DNA from: a virus
Length of the DNA: 28,052 nt
Strand: one strand, 5' to 3'
Virus record (IMG/VR): IMGVR_UViG_3300042485_001292
Span: 1 to 28,052 of that record
Shown here: piece by piece, positions 17,469 through 26,757 of the stretch
How positions within the stretch are numbered: the stretch's first letter is position 1
How the letters are laid out: the number at the start of each line of letters is the position of its first letter
Program-made: the position numbers and the translations under genes
Notes under the pieces: generated by a model
The model's database searches: none
What the model saw: the letters and a program-made list of their open reading frames with translations, nothing else
Told to the model about the DNA's origin: nothing

Positions 17469-17546
17469 CTAAAGGGGGGTAAAGTGTCCAATCTAAGCCC
17501 CTTAGAAAATAGGTCTTGCATTTAAATCTAAAGACCTCATAACTCA
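17469..17546 (+). promoter_or_regulatory. AT-rich control region with two inverted repeats before the early operon
   Basis: A perfect 15-base palindrome-type hairpin, TCTAAGCCCCTTAGA (17492-17506), is followed by a 7-bp inverted repeat, AGGTCTT (17511-17517) and AAGACCT (17531-17537), with an AT-rich 13-base loop. A second ATCTAA(A)G element is at 17525-17532. The stretch is much more AT-rich than the genome and lies immediately upstream of the 17580-25369 gene series. I find no convincing -35/-10 pair, so a promoter/operator is only suggested. Confidence 0.45.
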
Positions 17547-17579
17547 ATGGCGTACCCAATACACCAAGCCAACAACACC

Positions 17580-17813
17580 ATGAGCAAAGAACTCCCCACC
17601 ACCACCGAAACGATCAAGGCCGAATTCTCTGACCGCTTCAACTACTTCACCTTGATGCGCATCGTCTCCGAGTCTCGCGGCTCGTCCGACCAGCGTGGCT
17701 GGTGTTCCTACGCCCGCCGCGTGATGCTGACCCTCGGCTACCCTTCCGAGACCGCCGAGTGGAGCGACGTCAAGATGTGCGACTATGCCGACAACATCGT
17801 CGTCATGGGCTAA
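17580..17813 (+). CDS. Hypothetical protein, 77 residues, first gene after the control region
   Basis: No family is recognised. The ATG at 17580 is preferred because of the CCAAGCCAACAACACCATG leader, which matches other starts in this phage; an in-frame ATG at 17547 would add 11 residues. The product is mixed, with an acidic N-terminus (TTTETIKAEFSDRFNYFTL) and a basic/aromatic middle (QRGWCSYARRVMLTLGYPS). Being first in the operon, it may be an early host-takeover protein; that is inference from position. Confidence 0.65.
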   Translation: MSKELPTTTETIKAEFSDRFNYFTLMRIVSESRGSSDQRGWCSYARRVMLTLGYPSETAEWSDVKMCDYADNIVVMG

Positions 17814-17834
17814 CCTTTCCCCCCACCCAACCCA

Positions 17835-17936
17835 ATGAAAATCCTCCTCGCCCTCCTCGCGGCTGTCGCCCTGACCGCCTACATCCTCGCCCTCGCCGAC
17901 GGCCCCAGCCTCGTCGACATCATCAACAAGTACTAA
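17835..17936 (+). CDS. 33-residue single-TM peptide
   Basis: The ORF runs from ATG 17835 to TAA 17936 with strongly host-like C-ending codons. It encodes MKILLALLAAVALTAYILAL followed by ADGPSLVDIINKY: a basic start, a ~20-residue hydrophobic span and a short polar tail. The CCCAACCCAATG leader matches other starts in this operon, and it fills the gap between two genes. It could be a signal-anchored membrane peptide. Function is unknown. Confidence 0.6.
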   Translation: MKILLALLAAVALTAYILALADGPSLVDIINKY

Positions 17937-17944
17937 TCACCACC

Positions 17945-18259
17945 ATGCCCGACCCAATGTCCCACGTCCCCGACATGATTGCGTCCCCCGCCCATGTCAT
18001 CCGCGGCCTCTCCTACCAAATCGCCTACGCCCGTGATCGCGTCCTCCAAGGCGACTGGACGGAGAAGTACGCCCGCGAGCGTATCCAAGTGAGCGCCGCC
18101 GTAGCTGAAGAGAACCTCCGCGAGTCCCACAACTGCATGGCGGTCTCCATCTACGCCAACCTAACCACCGGCTGCCGTGCCCTGTTCACTTGGTACTACA
18201 TCGACCGCAACGGCAACAAGGAGGCAGGCTCGGTTCACCCGACGATGGACGGACGATGA
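17945..18259 (+). CDS. Hypothetical protein, 104 residues
   Basis: The ATG at 17945 follows an ATCACCACC leader; the longer ORF from 17702 crosses two other genes and is rejected. The product has helical parts (HVIRGLSYQIAYARDRVL; ERIQVSAAVAEENLRES) and a strand/aromatic end (ALFTWYYIDRNGNKEAG). No family is recognised. It overlaps the endolysin gene by four bases (ATGA), so it is translationally coupled to it and might influence lysis, but there is no direct evidence. Confidence 0.65.
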   Translation: MPDPMSHVPDMIASPAHVIRGLSYQIAYARDRVLQGDWTEKYARERIQVSAAVAEENLRESHNCMAVSIYANLTTGCRALFTWYYIDRNGNKEAGSVHPTMDGR

Positions 18260-18699
18260 GAACCCTAGCCCTCCTCCTCGCGGCGACCTCCCTGCACGCC
18301 ATCACCCCTGGACAAGTCGAGGCCATCATCTTCGTCGAGTCCTCCGGCAACCCCAAGGCCATCGGGCGTCTCGGCGAGCGTGGCCTCCTTCAGTTCTTCC
18401 CAGCTGCGTGGGCCGATACGACCCGCTGGCGTGCCCGCCACGGCCTCCCGACCTACGGCTACAGCACTTGGGCCACGGACGAAGGGGTCGGGCGGGAATA
18501 CGCCACCTCTTGGCTGACCCTCCTTGAGGAACGGCTGACCACGGCGCTAGGCCGACAGCCCACCCTTGGGGAAGTCTACGCCGCCCATCAGCTCGGCTTT
18601 GCAGGCTTTAAGTCTAAAGGGTTTGACCTAAAGAAATGTCCGACCATCACTCGGGTCGTGGTTGCTCGCCTTAACCGAGACCCACGCTCCACCAAATGA
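18256..18699 (+). CDS. Endolysin: exported lytic transglycosylase (SLT-like)
   Basis: The 147-residue protein degrades peptidoglycan. It starts at ATG 18256, overlapping the previous stop. Residues 1-15 (MRTLALLLAATSLHA) are a signal peptide or signal-arrest-release segment. The catalytic domain shows EAIIFVESSGNP (E28 as the catalytic acid), GERGLLQFFP (matching SLT GLMQ, residues 40-49) and VYAAHQLGFAGF as the AYNxG-like third motif. This is the SLT/goose-lysozyme-like fold. An own export signal means lysis timing may depend less on the holin opening. The gene lies in the early-side operon and not next to the holin, which is unusual. Confidence 0.8.
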   Translation: MRTLALLLAATSLHAITPGQVEAIIFVESSGNPKAIGRLGERGLLQFFPAAWADTTRWRARHGLPTYGYSTWATDEGVGREYATSWLTLLEERLTTALGRQPTLGEVYAAHQLGFAGFKSKGFDLKKCPTITRVVVARLNRDPRSTK

Positions 18700-19166
18700 A
18701 CAAGCCAACCATCGTCGCCGTCGACCCGGGCGTTAACGGAGGCATCGCCGTCTTCACTCCTTCCGAGGGGACGACCGAACTCCACAAGATGCCCCCGACC
18801 GACTGGGACGTCGTGAACCTCATCAAGTCCATCCATATGAACGCAGGCCGCGTCATCCTGTACCTTGAGGAGCCTCCGCTCTTCGCCGGCAAGAACATCC
18901 CCGGCTCTGCCATCGGGAAACTGATGTGGAACACGGGCGTCCTCTACGGCTCCGCAGTCGCCAACGGCTGGGAAGTCCACCGCGTGAAGCCCGCGATCTG
19001 GATGAAGGCCCACCCTGTCGGCACCAAAGGCGAACGCACCTCGACCCAATGGAAGAACGTCCTCAAGGCACGGGCCTGTGAACTCTTCCCCGATGAGGAG
19101 GTCACCCTTTGGAACGCAGACGCATTACTCATCCTTGACGCTGCTCGACGCGGCGCCATCAACTAA
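18696..19166 (+). CDS. RuvC-like Holliday junction resolvase
   Basis: The 156-residue protein has the RuvC layout: IVAVDPGVNGGIAVF with the first Asp (D10), a central acidic VILYLEEPP (E58/E59) and C-terminal NADALLILDAAR (D142, D148), which together form the metal-binding centre of RNase H-fold resolvases. It would cut branched DNA made by recombination or replication so that the terminase receives linear concatemers. It is coupled by ATGA to the endolysin gene. Confidence 0.85.
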   Translation: MNKPTIVAVDPGVNGGIAVFTPSEGTTELHKMPPTDWDVVNLIKSIHMNAGRVILYLEEPPLFAGKNIPGSAIGKLMWNTGVLYGSAVANGWEVHRVKPAIWMKAHPVGTKGERTSTQWKNVLKARACELFPDEEVTLWNADALLILDAARRGAIN

Positions 19167-19176
19167 CCCCCCTCCC

Positions 19177-19395
19177 ATGCTTAAGAAACAACCCAAGCCC
19201 ACCCCCGAAGTCAAAGTCCCCGCGACCTACCGCGAACTCTCTGGCTCCTCTTACATCGTCCTGTCCGACGGCACGGTCGCCCGCAAGCTGAAGCCCCGCC
19301 CCGCTGGGCAGACCCGCTATTGGTTCCTCTCCCACGATAACCGCCTCCGCTGCGTCTCCCAGAAGACGGTGGACGAGATGACTTCCTTCCCCTAA
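19177..19395 (+). CDS. Hypothetical small protein, 72 residues
   Basis: The product is read from ATG 19177 (leader CCCCCCTCCC); the extension from 19078 lies inside the resolvase gene. It has a basic Pro/Lys-rich N-terminus (LKKQPKPTPEVKVPATYREL) and a beta-like core (SYIVLSDGTVARKLKPR; YWFLSHDNRLRCVS). No family is recognised. The basic character suggests nucleic-acid contact, but this is not shown. Confidence 0.6.
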   Translation: MLKKQPKPTPEVKVPATYRELSGSSYIVLSDGTVARKLKPRPAGQTRYWFLSHDNRLRCVSQKTVDEMTSFP

Positions 19396-19424
19396 TCCTT
19401 TCCACCCAACCCACAAAACAAGCC

Positions 19425-19634
19425 ATGAACGAAACAAACAAAGACACGCAAGAACGCCTAATCACCCGCAGGGAACTTGCCAAACTCTGCAACGTATCGA
19501 CCCGCACGGTCGACAACTGGGTAGCGTCCAACAGCATCCCGGTCCTCCGTGGTCCGAGCGAGCGATGCGTCCGCTTCCTTTGGAGCGATGTCCTAAACTC
19601 CCTTCGCACCTCCAACCAGAACAACGTCAAGTAA
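19425..19634 (+). CDS. Small HTH DNA-binding regulator (MerR/excisionase-like)
   Basis: The 69-residue protein contains LITRRELAKLCNVSTRTVDN followed by WVASNSIPVLRGPSERCVRF: a helix-turn-helix with the wing (WxxxxxIPVxR...RFxxxDV) typical of MerR-like/excisionase-like HTH_17 proteins. The start follows the characteristic ACAAGCCATG leader. Without an integrase in the genome, an excisionase role is unlikely; a transcription regulator of the early region is more likely. The operator candidates at 17492-17537 are possible targets (inference). Confidence 0.75.
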   Translation: MNETNKDTQERLITRRELAKLCNVSTRTVDNWVASNSIPVLRGPSERCVRFLWSDVLNSLRTSNQNNVK

Positions 19635-19656
19635 CCAACCCACACCAAAACAAGCC

Positions 19657-20244
19657 ATGAGCAAAAAAGAAACCGCTCCCCAGGAGCAGACCAATCCCTA
19701 CTTCGACCTGATCACCGCCCTCTCCTCGATGGAGAACGTCGGCGCCAACCGCATCAACCCCGCCTTCAAGGCACGCTACGTCTCGCTCGACGCCCTGCTC
19801 GACGCGGTGAAGCCTGTCCTGCAAGCCAACAACCTAGCCCTCGTCCAAGTCCTTGAGACCGAGGAAGGCAAGGTCGGGGTGTCCACCTCCCTGCTGCACA
19901 CCTCGGGCCACCTCTTCGCCTTCGGCAAGTTAATGGTCAAGGCCGACGGCCTTACGGCTCAACAGGTCGGGGGTGCCATCACCTACATCCGCCGGCAGTC
20001 CATCCAGACGGCTTGCGGCATCTCGGTGGACCTCGACGACGATGGGCATCAAGCCTCCGCACCGAAGCCCCAAGCCCCCAAGGTCTTCATGGGCGAACTC
20101 CGCTTTGAGAAGGCCGCCGTGGAAATCCTCACGCTCAAGGGTTGGCTCAAGCCTGGACAAGGTTTGAAAGACCTCAGCGCTGAACACCTCGCCGCCATTA
20201 ACACCCACGCCTTCGAGCAGGCCGTCCGCAACGCCGCAAAATGA
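19657..20244 (+). CDS. ERF-family single-strand annealing protein
   Basis: The 195-residue recombinase should anneal complementary single strands during phage recombination. Family features are NPYFDLITALSSMENVGANR, the conserved YVSLDALLDAVKPVLQANNL block, GVSTSLLHTSGHLF and the signature QQVGGAITYIRRQSIQTACG...DLDDDG (~105-130). The C-terminus is a helical, less conserved segment. It forms an exonuclease/annealing pair with the RecE-like gene at 21682. The ACAAGCCATG leader lacks Shine-Dalgarno. Confidence 0.88.
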   Translation: MSKKETAPQEQTNPYFDLITALSSMENVGANRINPAFKARYVSLDALLDAVKPVLQANNLALVQVLETEEGKVGVSTSLLHTSGHLFAFGKLMVKADGLTAQQVGGAITYIRRQSIQTACGISVDLDDDGHQASAPKPQAPKVFMGELRFEKAAVEILTLKGWLKPGQGLKDLSAEHLAAINTHAFEQAVRNAAK

Positions 20245-20507
20245 ACATCGACGACATCATCGAGAACGCCCAGCTAAAGGGCCGCGTCATCGCCCTCGAC
20301 GCTGAAGTAAAGTGCCTTGAGGCCGTCATCCGTGCGCACGAACGGGTCGACTGCCTGTCGGTGACCAGCCTCAAGAAGCAACTGGTGGAGGCTGAAGCAC
20401 AAATCGCCCTCCTCCGCAAACTCGGCACCGAGATGGGCAAGCACCTCCCCGACACCGACGCCGCGAACCGGGCATACATCGACTTTGAAGCGGGAGGTCA
20501 GTCGTGA
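20241..20507 (+). CDS. Coiled-coil small protein (coupled cassette, gene 1)
   Basis: The 88-residue product overlaps the ERF stop (ATGA). It is almost wholly helical with heptad-like hydrophobics (RVIALDAEVKCLEAVIRAHE; LKKQLVEAEAQIALLRKLG), giving an obvious coiled coil. No catalytic or DNA-binding motif is visible. Coupling to ERF suggests a partner or modulator of recombination, but this is inferred. Confidence 0.65.
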   Translation: MNIDDIIENAQLKGRVIALDAEVKCLEAVIRAHERVDCLSVTSLKKQLVEAEAQIALLRKLGTEMGKHLPDTDAANRAYIDFEAGGQS

Positions 20508-20719
20508 GCGAGCAAGTCCGCAGGAAACTCAAGGTGGCGATGCAGGAGAACGCCCGCCTCAAGGCACAGGTCGACAGGCTGACCAAGGCGGGGGATGCCT
20601 ATTCTGATTTAATGGACAGGAAAGCAATGTTCCTCACCGATGAGTCACGATTGATGGCACGGACGGCATCGCTTGCATTCAAGGATGCATTGAACGCCGC
20701 CAAGGGGGTGCAGTCGTGA
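20504..20719 (+). CDS. Coiled-coil small protein (coupled cassette, gene 2)
   Basis: The 71-residue product starts with GTG and overlaps the previous stop (GTGA). The first ~30 residues are a basic heptad helix (VRRKLKVAMQENARLKAQVD), followed by a second helix (ARTASLAFKDALNAAKG). Like its neighbour it has no recognised family; the two could pair through their coiled coils. Confidence 0.6.
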   Translation: MSEQVRRKLKVAMQENARLKAQVDRLTKAGDAYSDLMDRKAMFLTDESRLMARTASLAFKDALNAAKGVQS

Positions 20720-21057
20720 CCACCTCGACCACCTCCGAGCGGGATGCCCGGCAACCCATCAACGTCATCCTCCTCGACCACACCATCGTCCTCATGTGGA
20801 TCGTCAAGACCGAGGCCGTCCGTCAGTACTCCATCCAGGACATGAAGCAGGCCGAGGTCGAGCTCGCTGACCTCGAGGCCGTCATCCTGTCCAAGCAGCG
20901 CAAGCACATCCCCGAACTGACAGGGGCGACCTTTGAACTGAACGGAAACGCCTACGTCATCGACGCGGTCAGCCAATCGGTCGCAGACAAGATAAACAAA
21001 AAATCTGTTTATCTGACCCCTATTTGGCTCTCCGCACGCTCTTTCTTCCCAAGATGA
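20716..21057 (+). CDS. Hypothetical protein (coupled cassette, gene 3)
   Basis: The 113-residue product starts with GTG overlapping the previous TGA. It has a hydrophobic strand pair (NVILLDHTIVLMWIVKTEAV), a helical acidic middle (MKQAEVELADLEAVILSKQR) and a beta-like end (ATFELNGNAYVIDAV). The 3' end around 20990-21040 is less C-biased and AT-rich. No family is recognised. Confidence 0.6.
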   Translation: MTTSTTSERDARQPINVILLDHTIVLMWIVKTEAVRQYSIQDMKQAEVELADLEAVILSKQRKHIPELTGATFELNGNAYVIDAVSQSVADKINKKSVYLTPIWLSARSFFPR

Positions 21058-21323
21058 ACGCCAAATCCGTCCCATCTTCCGTCTACAAGACGGCCCAAGC
21101 CTACGTCGACCAACGCAAGCCTTTCGCCCTAATCATCCTCCTCGACTCCATGCTGTACGTGGAAGTGTCAGCCAAGACGGCAATCGTCTTTGAGCGCCTC
21201 CTAAAGGACTGGACCGCCGAGACCATGCCCACCCTTTACCGCTCCAACCTCCGAACCTTCCTTGTTCTCAAGGGCGAGGTCAAGGAGGTCACCCTTAACC
21301 GCATCCGCACCATCCTCAAATGA
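21054..21323 (+). CDS. Hypothetical protein (coupled cassette, gene 4)
   Basis: The 89-residue product is read from ATG 21054, which overlaps the previous stop (ATGA). It has a helix (SVYKTAQAYVDQRKPF), a hydrophobic strand (ALIILLDSMLYVEV), a helix (AIVFERLLKDWTAETMP) and a basic end (LRTFLVLKGEVKEVTLNR). No family is recognised. The basic C-terminus could bind nucleic acid. Confidence 0.6.
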   Translation: MNAKSVPSSVYKTAQAYVDQRKPFALIILLDSMLYVEVSAKTAIVFERLLKDWTAETMPTLYRSNLRTFLVLKGEVKEVTLNRIRTILK

Positions 21324-21655
21324 CCTCCCAAGACCGCCTAGCCGCCACCCTCCGACGGCTCCAGAACGAGGCCCGCAGCCTCTCCGCCTACCAAACGACG
21401 TTCGTCACCCAGCACGATATCCACCGCGTCAGCATCGACGCCGACCGCCTGCTGTCCGTCCTCGCGATCACGGACGCGACTCACATCGACGACCCGGCTG
21501 ACTTGGTCGAGCTGCGGGAACGCCTCAACATCGTCCGAGCGGACTTGGCCTCACTCCTGGTCAGCGTCCAGAACCTCCACGAGAAGGCCGAGGACATGGA
21601 CAAGACGCTAATCGACGCCGAGAACCTTGTGGACAATCCCGACGAGGTGCTGTAG
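21320..21655 (+). CDS. Helical small protein (coupled cassette, gene 5)
   Basis: The 111-residue product overlaps the previous stop by four bases. It is predicted to be nearly all helical, with long amphipathic runs (RLAATLRRLQNEARSLSAYQ; LVELRERLNIVRADLASLLV; SVQNLHEKAEDMDKTLIDAE). No motif is recognised. It closes the overlapping set begun after ERF; the next gene starts only after a 26-base leader. Confidence 0.6.
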   Translation: MTSQDRLAATLRRLQNEARSLSAYQTTFVTQHDIHRVSIDADRLLSVLAITDATHIDDPADLVELRERLNIVRADLASLLVSVQNLHEKAEDMDKTLIDAENLVDNPDEVL

Positions 21656-21681
21656 CCCTTTCCCACCAACCCACCAAAGCC

Positions 21682-22512
21682 ATGTATACCATCGCACAAT
21701 TCAACGAACGCATCGCCGCCCGTACCCGCCAAGAGTACGAGGCGATTGACGCCCTAAACCAGACCTCCGCCAAGTTGCTCCTCAAGGCGCCCGCGAAGTA
21801 CGCCCACGACAAGGCCAACCCCCGCAAGGACTCCAAGGCCCTCCGTGAAGGCATCATGACCCACGCCGCCGTCCTCGACCCCGAGGCCTTCGCCAAGTTC
21901 AAGCCCGAACCCGAGGCCGACAAGCGCACGAAGGAAGGCAAGGAGGTCCACGCCTACTGGGCGTCCACCCTCCAGCCCGATGACATCCGTTGCAAGGCTG
22001 ACGAGTACGACAACGCCCTGTCCTACTCTGACGCGGTGAAGGCCGCCATGGGCCGTTATAACATCGTCCCGGTCGCAACTGAGGTCATGCTCAAGGCCGA
22101 CTATATCGTCCCCATCAAGGGGTCTATCGACCTGATCGCCGAGGACGGCTACCTCTACGACATCAAGACGACGATGGAAGAGGCCACGCCCAAGGGCTTC
22201 GGCAAGCAACTGATTTGGTCGGACGACTTCAAGCTACAGGCCGCTTGGTATCTCCTACTCTGCAAACTCAACTTCGGTGTCCGCCCCAAGGGCTTCCGTT
22301 TTCTGGTCGTCGAGAAGGAGGCGCCGTTCCTCACCGCCGTCTTTGAACTGCACCCCGACCTCATCGCCGAAGGGGAAGCGTTGATGCTCTCCGCGATGAA
22401 GGCCTATGAGGTCTGCAAGTCCTTTAACGAGTGGCCCGCCTACCCGTCCGAGGTCATCACGATTGCCCGCCCGACCTCCACCGCTCCCCTGGCTCCTATT
22501 AATTTCGCCTAA
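21682..22512 (+). CDS. RecE-like PD-(D/E)XK exonuclease
   Basis: The 276-residue nuclease should resect dsDNA ends to give the single strands that the ERF protein anneals. Motifs are LREGIMTHAAVLDP with H61, E134 (ATEVM), GSID with D150, YDIKTT with D160-x-K162, and QAAWY as the QxxxY motif (Q186, Y190). This is the RecB/RecE-type core, like DUF3799/YqaJ-type phage exonucleases. The start follows CCACCAAAGCCATG. It lies downstream of ERF with five small genes between, instead of directly adjacent as in many phages. Confidence 0.85.
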   Translation: MYTIAQFNERIAARTRQEYEAIDALNQTSAKLLLKAPAKYAHDKANPRKDSKALREGIMTHAAVLDPEAFAKFKPEPEADKRTKEGKEVHAYWASTLQPDDIRCKADEYDNALSYSDAVKAAMGRYNIVPVATEVMLKADYIVPIKGSIDLIAEDGYLYDIKTTMEEATPKGFGKQLIWSDDFKLQAAWYLLLCKLNFGVRPKGFRFLVVEKEAPFLTAVFELHPDLIAEGEALMLSAMKAYEVCKSFNEWPAYPSEVITIARPTSTAPLAPINFA

Positions 22513-22524
22513 CCCACAACCAAC

Positions 22525-22950
22525 ATGGAAAACCAAAACGACCGCCCGCCCCTCACCACCATCGCCGCCTCCGGCAAGTACGTCCTGAAGATGTCCCTCC
22601 CCAAGGAGGACAAGGTCAAGGTCTACGACGATGGCGTCTCCGCCCGCCTGTTCTTCAAGACCGCCGAGGGCCTCTGCTTCTCCAAGTCCTACGGCACCAA
22701 GTACGGCAAGTCCCTCGCCATGCTCGTCGGCAAGATCAGCGGGAAGTTCGTCAGCGAACCAAAGGCCGACCTCTCCGTGCCCGACTTCCTGGACTACCTC
22801 CGCCCAGCCACCAACGTCTATTTCGAGGTCGAGGTTGAAGTGACCCCCGATGGCGAATGGCAGGGCAAGCCGCAGTTCAAGTACAAGATGAACTTCCCCA
22901 AGGGCAAGGGCGTTGCCGCGTCGACCATCCCGACCCCGACCGACTGGTAG
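22525..22950 (+). CDS. Probable ssDNA-binding or recombination accessory protein
   Basis: The 141-residue protein is strand-rich: SGKYVLKMSLPKED, VSARLFFKTAEGLCFSKSY, a helix (KSLAMLVGKISGKFV), then VYFEVEVEVTPDGEWQGKPQ and FKYKMNFPKGKG. This G-K-Y...R-L-F-F pattern recalls DUF669-like proteins that act as phage ssDNA-binding proteins, but the match is by eye only. Its place just behind the exonuclease supports a recombination/replication role. The Lys-rich content fits nucleic-acid contact. Confidence 0.5.
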   Translation: MENQNDRPPLTTIAASGKYVLKMSLPKEDKVKVYDDGVSARLFFKTAEGLCFSKSYGTKYGKSLAMLVGKISGKFVSEPKADLSVPDFLDYLRPATNVYFEVEVEVTPDGEWQGKPQFKYKMNFPKGKGVAASTIPTPTDW

Positions 22951-22953
22951 TCC

Positions 22954-23520
22954 ATGCGCCGCATCATCAAAGCCCCGCAGACCATCGTCCTCCTCTCCGG
23001 GTACGCCCGCAGCGGGAAGGACACCTTTGCGGAAGGGATGACCCGCTACAGCGTGGACATCAAGCGCATCGCCTACGCCGACGCCCTCAAGGACGCCGCC
23101 AATGAGTACGCCCGAAACCTCGGACTGTCGGTGAACTTCCACGAAGAGACTTTCAAGGCACAGCACCGCGACACCTTAGTCGCTATGGGTCGGTTCGCCC
23201 GGTCTATCCATAGGGACGTCTTTGTCTTCAATCTGACCGAGGCAGCCAATCGTGAGCGAGGCCACGTCGTCGTCACCGACTGCCGATACCTGAACGAGAC
23301 CATCGTCACGAAGCAAATCATGGGCGAGGTCCGTGGCTGGCGGGTCGTCCATCTGCACATCGAGACCGAAGGCGTCGGCCCGGCGAACGAGGAAGAGGCC
23401 ACCAGCATCCGCGAGATGCTCGAGGGCGTCATCCCCGACCAGACGTACGTCTTCAAACCTAACACCGCCGTGACGATCCGCGAGGTCGGTGCGTCCGTCG
23501 CCAAGCACCTACAACTGTGA
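22954..23520 (+). CDS. Deoxynucleoside monophosphate kinase-like P-loop protein
   Basis: The 188-residue protein has an N-terminal Walker A, VLLSGYARSGKDTFA (G16-T24), in the GxxxxGKDT form typical of phage dNMP kinases, followed by KRIAYADALKDAANEYARNL and the conserved TDCRYLNE with acidic residues at ~105-112. It would phosphorylate dNMPs from degraded host DNA to supply phage replication. The stop overlaps a GTG start (GTGA) at 23517. Confidence 0.8.
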   Translation: MRRIIKAPQTIVLLSGYARSGKDTFAEGMTRYSVDIKRIAYADALKDAANEYARNLGLSVNFHEETFKAQHRDTLVAMGRFARSIHRDVFVFNLTEAANRERGHVVVTDCRYLNETIVTKQIMGEVRGWRVVHLHIETEGVGPANEEEATSIREMLEGVIPDQTYVFKPNTAVTIREVGASVAKHLQL

Positions 23521-23801
23521 GCCGTAAACAAACCAAGCAGGAACGCATCGAGGAACTTGAGAAGCAGTTGGAACAGGTCAACGCCCTCAACAAGCAACTC
23601 GCCGACGTCCTCAAGATGACCGAGGATGGTCAATGGGTCGTCATATCCGAGAAGGACTTGAACCGCTACCGCAACGGCATCGATGTCCTCATCAAGGCCG
23701 GCAATGCCCTGGACGAACACTTGGGCGAGTTTGACCCTACCGAGAACGGCTTTGCCGTGCGCCAAGTCTGGAAGCAAGCCAAGGAGTCAGACAAGTTCTG
23801 A
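23517..23801 (+). CDS. Small coiled-coil protein
   Basis: The 94-residue product starts with GTG overlapping the kinase stop. Residues ~5-35 are a strong heptad helix (QERIEELEKQLEQVNALNKQ), followed by a mixed region (EDGQWVVISEKDLNRYRNGI) and an acidic end. No family is recognised. It might oligomerise or tether one of the DNA-metabolism proteins encoded beside it. Confidence 0.6.
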   Translation: MSRKQTKQERIEELEKQLEQVNALNKQLADVLKMTEDGQWVVISEKDLNRYRNGIDVLIKAGNALDEHLGEFDPTENGFAVRQVWKQAKESDKF

Positions 23802-23802
23802 C

Positions 23803-24354
23803 ATGGCGACCCCCACCGACGACGAGCTGGAGGAAATGTCGAGGTGCTGGGGCGTGTCAGTCGACCGCCTCCGCTTCCTTGCCACCTGTCCCCACTACGA
23901 CTCCAAGCCACATATCCGGGTCGACGACTACAAAGACCCGACCGACCGCCACATCGCCAAGGCCATCCGCGAGGCCATCCGTGGCTCGTGGCTCCCTTCC
24001 GATGCCGCCAAGATAGGCAAGGTCACCCTCAAGACCATCGAGGCCTTCGTCTGCCGTCACGGCATCATCTGGCCTCCCGGCTGTCGGCGCCGTCTCGAAT
24101 GGGGACGCGGCACGACCCACACGCACCGCCTCAACGAGGAACACGCCAACCTCCTAGCCAAGGGACGGCTGACGATGGCACAGGCCGCCGCCAAGGGCGT
24201 AGAGGAAGGGCTGACCGCCACCGAGACCGCCGAGAGGTTTGGCTTCTCCGCTCCAGGGATGTACAACGCCGCCGTGCGTCAAGGCCTCCGCTTCCGCAGC
24301 CATAAGGAGAAGTACGGCACCCGCAAGGGTAAGCCAAACACGCCAAGTGTATGA
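23803..24354 (+). CDS. DNA-binding-like protein with two HTH motifs
   Basis: The 183-residue protein is read from ATG 23803; the longer ORF from 23683 lies inside the previous gene. It shows two helix-turn-helix-like stretches: ~64-88 (LPSDAAKIGKVTLKTIEAFV) and ~137-163 (LTATETAERFGFSAPGMYNA). The region between is basic with conserved-looking RRRLEWGRG. It could be a replication or transcription regulator; the replication position and double HTH make an origin-binding role possible. No known initiator family is recognised. Confidence 0.65.
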   Translation: MATPTDDELEEMSRCWGVSVDRLRFLATCPHYDSKPHIRVDDYKDPTDRHIAKAIREAIRGSWLPSDAAKIGKVTLKTIEAFVCRHGIIWPPGCRRRLEWGRGTTHTHRLNEEHANLLAKGRLTMAQAAAKGVEEGLTATETAERFGFSAPGMYNAAVRQGLRFRSHKEKYGTRKGKPNTPSV

Positions 24355-25106
24355 GCCGCTTGACCAAGTTCATCTTCGCCTCGGACAGTCACGGAGACAT
24401 GGCAGACCCCGAAGCCCTCTCCGCCCTCTACGAGTTCACCAAGGACTTTAAGCCCGACGTCAAGGTGGCCGGGGGCGATCACTACGACTTCCGCAGTCTC
24501 CGCAAGGGCGTTGGGTCCGACAAGGAAGGAGCTGAGTCCCTCCAAGAGGACATCGAGGCCGGCGAGGACTTTTTCGCCAAGTGGAAGCCTACCGTCTACC
24601 TTTGGGGCAACCACGAACATCGCCTCGACTCGATGCAGGGCCACGGGCAGGCCATCGTCCGCGACTACTGCACCGACCTCAAGGACCGCATCAACCGCGT
24701 CGCCCGCCAAAACGGGGCCAAGGTTATCCTGCCCTACCACGCCGACAAGGGCGTCTATCGTCTCGGCCCTGTCGCTATGGTTCACGGCTACGCCCACGGC
24801 GCCAACGCCACCGTCGTCCAGGGACTCCACTACAGCCCCCACGGTGGGGCTTTGATACACGGACACACCCACAACCTCGCCAGCGTCGCCTTGACCAAGC
24901 ACGGGGGCGGAAACGCCTTCTCCGCTGGTTGCCTCTGCCGCAAGGACGAGATGGACTACGCGTCCCACCGCCTCGCCACCTCCCGCTGGGGTTCGGGCTT
25001 CGTTGCCGGGTTCGTCACCAAGGGCGGCGACTACAAGGCTTGGCTCGTCCACAAGATGGGCGGCGTCTGGATCTGGCAAACGGAACTCAAGACCTTTACC
25101 CCATGA
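24351..25106 (+). CDS. Calcineurin-like metallophosphoesterase
   Basis: The 251-residue protein contains the full metallophosphoesterase motif set: DSH (D12, H14), GGDHYD (D43, D46), WGNHEHR (N87, H88), VHG (H145) and GHTHN (H172, H174), the ligands for a two-metal centre. Substrates in phages vary (phosphodiester bonds or protein phosphates), and nothing here fixes it. It overlaps both neighbours by 4 bases (ATGA), placing it inside a coupled HTH-phosphoesterase-HTH set upstream of the helicase. Confidence 0.85.
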   Translation: MSRLTKFIFASDSHGDMADPEALSALYEFTKDFKPDVKVAGGDHYDFRSLRKGVGSDKEGAESLQEDIEAGEDFFAKWKPTVYLWGNHEHRLDSMQGHGQAIVRDYCTDLKDRINRVARQNGAKVILPYHADKGVYRLGPVAMVHGYAHGANATVVQGLHYSPHGGALIHGHTHNLASVALTKHGGGNAFSAGCLCRKDEMDYASHRLATSRWGSGFVAGFVTKGGDYKAWLVHKMGGVWIWQTELKTFTP

Positions 25107-25369
25107 GACAGCGCAAACTCGACCCGCTCCTGGTCAAGGTGATGGCCGCCATCCACCAGACCGCCGAGAAGCCTGCCAAGGGTTTCCGCACCATCGACGA
25201 GTGGGCCGCCAAGTGGAAGGTGCAAAGGTCATCCGCCCGCATGATGCTCCTTAAGGGCGTCAAACTCGGCCTAGTAGAGAAACGCACCTACCTTCGCGTC
25301 ATTCGAAAGGACGCCAAACCCTACCCGACTGCCCACTTCGGAGAAAAGGCTCGACCTCGTAAGACCTAA
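25103..25369 (+). CDS. Winged-helix-like DNA-binding protein
   Basis: The 88-residue product from ATG 25103 overlaps the phosphoesterase stop. GFRTIDEWAAKWKVQRSSAR with the following MMLLKGVKLGLVEKRTYLR reads as a winged helix-turn-helix: helix, recognition helix, then wing. The termini are basic (MRQRKLDP; KARPRKT). It may recruit the helicase encoded 29 bases downstream, or regulate early genes; both are positional inferences. Confidence 0.65.
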   Translation: MRQRKLDPLLVKVMAAIHQTAEKPAKGFRTIDEWAAKWKVQRSSARMMLLKGVKLGLVEKRTYLRVIRKDAKPYPTAHFGEKARPRKT

Positions 25370-25398
25370 GCACCTTAGTCCCCCCTCACCTCCAAGCC

Positions 25399-26757
25399 AT
25401 GGAACAACCCCCACCTTCCGCCCTAGACGCGGAACGGCATATCCTTGCCGTCTCTATCGCCCAAGGGCTACCGCTGCCCGACGGCCTCATCCCGTCCGAC
25501 TTCTTTGAGCCGACCAATCAAGACATCGCCTCCGCGATCACGGCGCTCATCGACGAAGGCACGACCCCCGACGAGCTGACAGTCAGCCAACGCCTTCGCC
25601 AACTCGGCTCACCTGTCGAGGCCTTTGCGGTCTCCGACCTGTCCACCACCGGGCAGTTTATCCAGCCGAACCCCGCATGGAGCCGTGCGGTGATTAAAGC
25701 CCTTAACCTACGCAAAATTGCGGAGAATAGCCGAGCCGTCCTTAAGGTCATCAACGAGGCGGGTGCTGACCCCGACGCCATCCTTCTCGCCCAAGAGCAA
25801 CTTGCCAAGTCTCTCACACGGCGCAAGGGGGAGGGGAAGGAGACCTCGCCCACCGAGTACTTCGACCTCGACTCGATGCTCTCCTTCGACCCAGCCGACG
25901 ACAAGACCGTCCTCATCGGCGCCGAGCGTCGCTGGATTTGCCAAGGCTACCCGTTCCAGATCGTGGGCTTCTCCGGCACGGGCAAGTCCTCCCTCGCGGT
26001 ACACCTCGCCGTCCATTGGGCACTTGGCAAAGCCCCCTTCGGCCTAAAGCCCGTCCGCCCGCTCCGTATCCTCATGGTCCAAGCCGAGAATGACTTCGGG
26101 GACGCAGCCGAAGGACTCAAAGGGGCGACCGCCAAGCTCGTCGAACCAGAACGCCGTGCGCTGAAGGACAACCTCATCTTCGTCCGCCAGTCGTCCAAGA
26201 TGGGCTTTGAGTTCGTCCAATACCTCGGGGAGATGGTCGAGAAGCACTCCATCGACCTCATCATCGCTGACCCCCTCCTCGCCTACGCGAACTTCGACAT
26301 CGCCAAACAGGACGAGACCTCCGCCTTCCTCCGTGGCCCTGGAGGTGTCTTCGAGATGCTCCAGCGCACGAAGGCCGCCCTGCTGTATATGCACCACACG
26401 ACCAAGCCCAAGTCGGCTGACGATCTGGACGCTATGACCCCCCAGCAACTCGCCTATCTCGGGGCTGGGTGCGCTGAGTGGGTGAACTTCGCCCGCGACT
26501 CTGGCTACCTCTTCCGCACGAAGGCCAACACCTCGGACGGTCGTGCAGTCTACCGCTTCGGCTTCTCCAAGCGTCAGTCCCGCTCGGGCCTCAAGGACGC
26601 GAACGACCGCTACACCGGGCACGTCAACCTCTGCCATGCCGAGGACGGGACCATCCGCTGGGAGTACGCCCCGCCCGCTATGCAGGACAGCCAGCCGACC
26701 CAGAAGGCCTATTCCAGCCCCGCTAAGGGGTCGCCAAGGCGTCCAGAGTCCCTCTGA
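25399..26757 (+). CDS. Replicative helicase-type ATPase: DnaB N-like domain fused to RepA-like AAA domain
   Basis: The 452-residue protein has a DnaB N-terminal-like region (DAERHILAVSIAQGLPLPDG; DFFEPTNQDIASAITALIDE, residues 9-53). A RecA-fold ATPase follows: Walker A GFSGTGKSSL (190-199), MVQAEND (E230), Walker B IDLIIADPLL (285-294), and LLYMHHTTKP (328-337), the HHT-K motif of RepA/AAA_25 helicases. The C-terminus is a Pro/Ser-rich tail. It is the main replication motor. There is no DNA polymerase or primase gene, so host replisome parts must be recruited. The start follows CTCCAAGCCATG. Confidence 0.85.
   Translation: MEQPPPSALDAERHILAVSIAQGLPLPDGLIPSDFFEPTNQDIASAITALIDEGTTPDELTVSQRLRQLGSPVEAFAVSDLSTTGQFIQPNPAWSRAVIKALNLRKIAENSRAVLKVINEAGADPDAILLAQEQLAKSLTRRKGEGKETSPTEYFDLDSMLSFDPADDKTVLIGAERRWICQGYPFQIVGFSGTGKSSLAVHLAVHWALGKAPFGLKPVRPLRILMVQAENDFGDAAEGLKGATAKLVEPERRALKDNLIFVRQSSKMGFEFVQYLGEMVEKHSIDLIIADPLLAYANFDIAKQDETSAFLRGPGGVFEMLQRTKAALLYMHHTTKPKSADDLDAMTPQQLAYLGAGCAEWVNFARDSGYLFRTKANTSDGRAVYRFGFSKRQSRSGLKDANDRYTGHVNLCHAEDGTIRWEYAPPAMQDSQPTQKAYSSPAKGSPRRPESL

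Follow-up and report, generated by a model that had tools for sequence, protein, structure and literature searches.

Gene order and start leaders of the window

The window analysed here is a whole virus record, IMGVR_UViG_3300042485_001292, 28,052 bases in length, and the subject of this work is the leaders directly preceding its gene starts, in particular A/C-rich leaders devoid of a Shine-Dalgarno (SD) sequence and the AAGCC-ATG ending recurring among them in the early half of the genome. The window resembles a tailed phage: genes for terminase, portal and major head protein are followed by an early half encoding RuvC-like resolvase, Erf-like annealing protein (gene 19657, so assigned by PHROGs), exonuclease VIII-like protein, deoxynucleoside monophosphate kinase, metallophosphoesterase and DnaB-like helicase. 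Its 43 starts were classed by their distance to the preceding gene: 22 of them, lying more than 8 nt away, are referred to as uncoupled, 13 overlap the upstream gene, and starts 7974 and 4292 fall within 8 nt of it and are therefore outside the uncoupled class. The initial annotation had quoted six early leaders as A/C-rich (those of 17835, 19425, 19657, 21682, 22525 and 25399); all six are indeed located there and possess this composition, although 17835 and 22525 do not end in AAGCC. Together with the leader of the first early gene they are as follows.

17547–17579, plus strand: slot A leader, belonging to the first early gene and made up of conserved ACCCAATACACCAAGCC followed by AACAACACC, with ATG at 17580; in relatives the same leader with AAGCC-ATG ending precedes unrelated open reading frames (ORFs).
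17814–17834, plus strand: SD-less A/C leader of the 33-aa ORF 17835-17936; 7 distinct ortholog leaders, none with SD.
19396–19424, plus strand: leader of the helix-turn-helix gene 19425, ending in ACAAGCC; it resembles the Erf leader and occupies the Erf position of relatives.
19635–19656, plus strand: leader of the gene for Erf-like annealing protein, 19657, ending in ACAAGCC; 18 distinct ortholog leaders, none with SD.
21656–21681, plus strand: leader of the exonuclease VIII-like gene 21682, ending in AAAGCC; 23 distinct ortholog leaders.
22513–22524, plus strand: short A/C leader CCCACAACCAAC of gene 22525, without AAGCC; 31 distinct ortholog leaders with 3% G and no SD.
25366–25398, plus strand: leader of the helicase slot (slot C), composed of palindrome CTAAGCACCTTAG, pyrimidine tract, CTCCAAGCC and then ATGGAACAA; the same leader precedes varied genes in relatives.

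The helix-turn-helix gene 19425 is carried by only two related loci. The product of ORF 17835-17936 has a hydrophobic start and is conserved in several relatives.

The sequence AAGCCATG is present in the window in four copies only (19420, 19652, 21677 and 25394), each abutting a gene start, and ACAAGCCATG in exactly two (19418 and 19650), which agrees with the exact repeats noticed earlier at these starts. AAGCC occupies positions -5 to -1 at 4 of the 43 starts, the base rate being 0.27% per position (binomial p = 6e-6). Most of the motif words tested exceed their frequency in dinucleotide-shuffled leaders: ACCAA (9 versus 3.2, reached in 3 of 300 shuffles), CCAACCC (4 versus 0.86, 3/300), CAACCC (5/300), AAGCC (8/300) and, weakly, CCAAC (21/300), while CCCAC is not enriched over the same control (48/300). 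For the 22 uncoupled starts the energy of the duplex with anti-SD is -1.0 kcal/mol, whereas 283 ATGs that are not starts give -3.8 kcal/mol (p = 1.6e-5); three of the 22 still reach -4.5 kcal/mol, and the test of SD frequency taken alone is borderline (p = 0.058). The leaders of these starts contain 12.7% G versus 23.7% in other intergenic DNA of the window, so the G-poor bias belongs to the leaders, and their predicted accessibility is 0.63 versus 0.43 (p = 3.8e-8); structure prediction revealed no RNA fold shared among the window leaders. Absence of SD ascribed earlier to the head genes is confirmed for starts 2809, 5164 and 5636, and likewise for 4292 (leader ACCAACTTCCTAAA).

Leaders and the AAGCC module in related phages

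Comparison with 119 related viral loci, obtained from two scans, yielded 149 distinct leaders from start-aligned orthologs of nine genes. None of them has SD, G accounts for 6% of their bases, and C is found at -1 in 76% and at -2 in 72%. Being related among themselves, the 149 leaders do not represent independent events. The expectation that leader conservation would be seen in related phages is thus borne out, and a more distant collinear phage (contig C265 of the metagenome-assembled genome, MAG, G001) keeps SD-less A/C leaders at the Erf, exonuclease, 22525 and helicase genes. At the Erf gene, AAGCC is kept in the listed orthologs although length and upstream bases of the leader vary. Exonuclease leaders of orthologs end in AAGCC or, in some clades, ACGCC or CCACC/CCACT; position -3 is a purine in 23 of 23 distinct leaders.

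In relatives AAGCCATG was observed 156 times with 39.5 expected, and if AAGCCAATG is also allowed there are 167 occurrences in 28 protein families, several of which are internal coding matches; none of the 28 families showed the start of a recognised structural gene behind AAGCC(A)ATG. The supposition of a shared element of the early operon is supported by this distribution, the genes behind AAGCC-ATG in relatives being numerous, mutually unrelated and non-structural; they amount to about 20 unrelated families. Reuse is most apparent at certain positions, or slots. In slot A the leader AACTCAATGGCGTACCCAATACACCAAGCC stands before at least five unrelated ORFs (pattern matches in L293, L294, L299 and L300 were discarded as not being in early-region context). 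In slot C the leader with CTAAGCCCCTTAG stands before DnaB variants, Mom, N6_N4_Mtase, DruA-like protein and an 86-aa ORF, and slot D, behind the phosphoesterase gene, is occupied by methylases. Pairwise identity between unrelated genes of one slot (slots A–C) is 0.93–1.00 at positions -10 to -1 and 0.74–0.94 over the first three codons, dropping to about 0.3 further on; lower identity farther upstream in slot C reflects ungapped comparison of leaders having unequal length.

Accessory genes behind shared leaders (L012:458-2606, L019:572-1258 and L010:3266-4117) encode Mom, N6/N4 DNA methylases and DruA-like protein, and possibly constitute a DNA-modification or counter-defence island beside the helicase gene. 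The helicase slot of L029 and L287 has the same leader followed by an unrelated N-terminal region (MEQQTTAVDNFERA...) and related C-terminal part of helicase, an apparent domain exchange. In L288, which lies on the same 4.7-kb contig as L016, the helicase-slot leader is present twice on opposite strands, before helicase and methylase genes; this contig may be an assembly chimera.

Palindrome CTAAGNNNCTTAG was counted in 1.02 Mb of phage loci, where 39 copies were found, nearly all at the helicase slot, with 0–6 copies for control palindromes. In the window it is located at the beginning of the early region (17493-17505) and at the helicase slot (25366-25378), and it is a possible regulator site. 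Two features precede the leader of slot A.

17493–17505, plus strand: palindrome CTAAGCCCCTTAG upstream of the first early gene, exact match.
17516–17543, plus strand: candidate early promoter TTGCAT-16-CATAAC, with TTGACG in relatives; read by eye and weak.

Consensus promoter scan called nothing near 17516.

Probable host and its initiation style

Alignment of the helicase with the genome collection gave matches only in contigs of one Opitutae MAG (G001), and the portal has a distant match (27%) in P8625, which infects a Puniceicoccales strain (PMC4642752). Assignment of the host via a prophage was rejected, C265 being a free phage-like contig and other matches at the class level being partial and confined to the helicase domain. 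By these similarities the host of the virus probably belongs to Opitutae (Verrucomicrobiota). With a uniform start caller, the SD fraction is 0.91 in E. coli, 0.64 in Rhodobacter phage RcKemmy, 0.18 in Verrucomicrobia phage P8625, 0.16 in Opitutae-family genomes and 0% in the window; with annotated starts it amounts to 0.92 in E. coli, 0.91 in RcKemmy and 0.08 for uncoupled genes of P8625.

Leaders of rpsU in the Opitutae family (for example, CCTCGACCCTCCAACTGCCAAC-ATG) and most leaders of rpsR (for example, CTTACTTCCAAACCTCCC-ATG) have no SD; a strong SD on rpsU, as in many Flavobacteriales, was sought in this family and is absent. The tail of 16S rRNA GGATCACCTCCTTT, found in one genome of the inferred host family, is intact with CCTCC kept (GGATCACCTCCTTTCT). 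Enrichment of C at -1 and -2 is common to phage and host leaders, and the AAGCC ending occurs in none of 116 host leaders. The comparison with host leaders and anti-SD proposed in the initial annotation thus points to the same leader style in the probable host family, which together with the shuffle test and the lack of SD in all 149 ortholog leaders supports the suggested SD-independent initiation. What had been missed is that two origins are combined here, host-type initiation and a phage-specific AAGCC module, the latter standing before unrelated genes.

Scarcity of SD with conserved CCUCC is described for some Verrucomicrobia, such as Akkermansia and strain IMCC26134, in a published account (PMC10783764), so the host side is known in outline. 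The inferred host belongs to the same phylum, with SD likewise rare and CCUCC kept; the passages of the account on this point describe no leader sequence, phages or mechanism for this phylum. In Bacteroidia, Tyr54 of ribosomal protein bS21 stacks on A1534 and helps to sequester the anti-SD (PMC9976891). Unlike bS21 of Bacteroidia, that of the inferred host family has Phe at the equivalent position, in 30 of 30 Opitutae-family genomes (L145-L174); E. coli has Lys. The genes for bS18 and bS6, whose contacts complete the sequestering pocket in Bacteroidia, were located as well.

Interpretation and relation to known systems

We consider it likely that the leaders serve to initiate translation independently of SD on an Opitutae-type ribosome, to which they are adapted, and that they are supplemented with a reusable phage-specific AAGCC start module. 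According to this scheme, non-overlapping genes would start from short, unstructured, G-depleted and A/C-rich leaders, often having C at -1 and -2, and 30S subunits not relying on SD would land on such a leader, which is open and poor in G, while overlapping genes would depend on translational coupling. The non-structural half would reuse the module consisting of an A/C tract, AAGCC, ATG and codons 2–3, and a copy of it would stand in front of new accessory genes joining the early operon. The module may double as a junction for homologous exchange, plausibly aided by the Erf annealing protein and exonuclease of the phage. We read the AAGCC-ATG element as a portable, SD-less translation-initiation module that would also mark gene-exchange junctions. 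Blindness to SD could, speculatively, result from sequestration of anti-SD by bS21, as in Bacteroidia. A fuller version, in which a mobile SD-less module expresses acquired genes (Mom, methylase, DruA-like) on SD-ignoring ribosomes, its sequence being read by 30S or by a phage factor, and Opitutae became SD-blind via Phe of bS21 separately from Bacteroidia, appears doubtful. Direct pairing of AAGCC with 16S rRNA (AGCC is complementary to GGCU beside the anti-SD) was considered and is unlikely by reasoning, as this stretch should pair in helix 45 and the element is too near to AUG. Purine at -3 was rejected as the whole explanation: it is found in 66% of uncoupled orthologs and 85% in P8625, but the bias is shared by the controls, with 69% for E. 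coli and 78% for RcKemmy.

A number of observations weigh against the proposed scheme. Purine at -3 is not universal, dropping to 29% and 12% in two gene groups. The 13 starts overlapping the upstream gene resemble background with no SD depletion, and two GTG starts, 20504 and 20716, carry a strong SD-like sequence with duplex energies of -11.5 and -14.0 kcal/mol, respectively.

20490–20718, plus strand: counter-example, in which GTG starts 20504 and 20716 each overlap the preceding gene and have SD-like GGGAGG and AAGGGGG upstream.

The SD-like bases at these two starts also encode the C-terminus of the upstream product; they may be constrained as coding sequence, or the starts may form a second class that does use SD. 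This segment comprises two consecutive GTGA-overlapping starts with CAGTCGTGA junctions, and a similar arrangement is seen in relatives. On the host side, the closest MAG, G001, has more SD-like leaders than its family (38–41% of 16–17 roughly called starts), and C265, the matching contig, holds an entire collinear phage of 28 kb and no recognisable host genes, so the link to the host rests on binning. C265 also has no AAGCC at Erf, exonuclease and helicase genes; since it retains the SD-less A/C style, this style probably predates AAGCC. Finally, AAGCC does not always abut ATG: at a number of helicase loci a gap of 1–2 nt lies between them, meaning that exact placement is not essential, which speaks against strict positioning.

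The same shift of spacing, with AAGCC retained, is what might be expected if the module were mainly a DNA element, that is, a homology tract or a site for a nuclease or regulator, whereas translation would need only an open G-poor leader and AAGCC would have no role in initiation. This is possible, if somewhat improbable: the near identity of leaders standing before unrelated genes, which ends abruptly after codon 3, the palindrome CTAAGNNNCTTAG attached to the helicase slot, the presence of Erf and exonuclease among the phage products and the existence of other leaders without AAGCC in the same genome all fit it, but a plain homology tract does not predict that AAGCC beside ATG persists in the Erf slot, where the leader otherwise changes in both length and sequence. 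We regard as unlikely a binding site with AAGCC core for a phage-encoded RNA- or DNA-binding protein co-regulating the early genes; confinement to non-structural genes, repeated use before genes of recombination, replication and accessory functions and absence from host leaders accord with such a site, yet no candidate regulator was found, five nucleotides are short for it, and the leaders are predicted to be open and to share no RNA fold.

Still less probable is termination-reinitiation over a gap of 12–30 nt, which would require no ribosome-binding site and would reduce the leader to a spacer. The quoted early leaders do lie 12–30 nt past a stop codon, and overlaps (ATGA/GTGA) are common between neighbouring genes, but base bias and AAGCC are needless in a spacer, the slot A gene, which is first in the early region and apparently promoter-proximal, has the same kind of leader, and host rpsU and rpsR leaders are similar. 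That the recurring leader merely combines the ordinary compositional bias of short gaps with recent duplication is highly improbable: the two identical copies of ACAAGCCATG (at 19425 and 19657) probably do represent an insertion with a copied leader, but the higher G content of other intergenic DNA, the rarity of most motif words in shuffled leaders and recurrence of the pattern across relatives argue against bias as the source.

In relation to the likely scheme of SD-independent leaders with a phage-specific module, the closest known system is that of start-associated sequences (SAS/ESAS) of Cluster K mycobacteriophages, where the 13-bp 5'-GGGATAGGAGCCC contains the SD core and lies 3–7 nt from the start, and about half of the sites have imperfect 17-bp inverted repeats upstream (PMC3203893). 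The module described here works like SAS but is not one. Similarly to SAS, it is a short conserved asymmetric sequence located by start codons, mainly ATG, it is restricted to the non-structural half, where it precedes different gene families (28 with several internal matches), some of its copies have an upstream inverted repeat, and it is absent or rare in the host. Unlike SAS, the phage leaders possess neither the SD core nor the 13-bp sequence, the recurring unit being AAGCC-ATG, and the element is an A/C tract ending in AAGCC that abuts ATG and extends into codons 2–3; instead of 17-bp repeats there is a palindrome with arms of 5 bp only, at the helicase slot and near slot A, differing in both sequence and size. 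PeSL cassettes of T4-type phages combine an early promoter with a stem-loop. They resemble the module as repeated short intergenic cassettes bordering exchanged accessory genes and differ from it in that the module is a start leader and its palindrome is present at some sites only.

The predicted mode of initiation is of the known SD-scarce kind, with few starts able to pair with anti-SD (none of 149 ortholog-supported uncoupled leaders and 3 of 22 uncoupled window starts). In Bacteroidia, as exemplified by Flavobacterium johnsoniae, SD-independent, Kozak-like initiation is described (PMC6847099, PMC9976891, PMC8710568). Shared with them are the intact 16S anti-SD, SD-less weakly structured leaders and base bias just upstream of the start, whereas the leaders here are C-rich as well as A-rich and A at -3, -6, -12 and -13 is not the rule. 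The window and its relatives thus give a phage-side view of SD-independent initiation in Verrucomicrobiota, a phylum for which no description of the start signal was found, and near-identical leaders before unrelated genes provide a natural set separating leader from coding effects. A G-poor A/C leader with CAAGCC-ATG offers a practical signature for calling gene starts in uncultured phages of this kind; as new genes lie immediately after the module, it also helps to find accessory DNA-modification genes.

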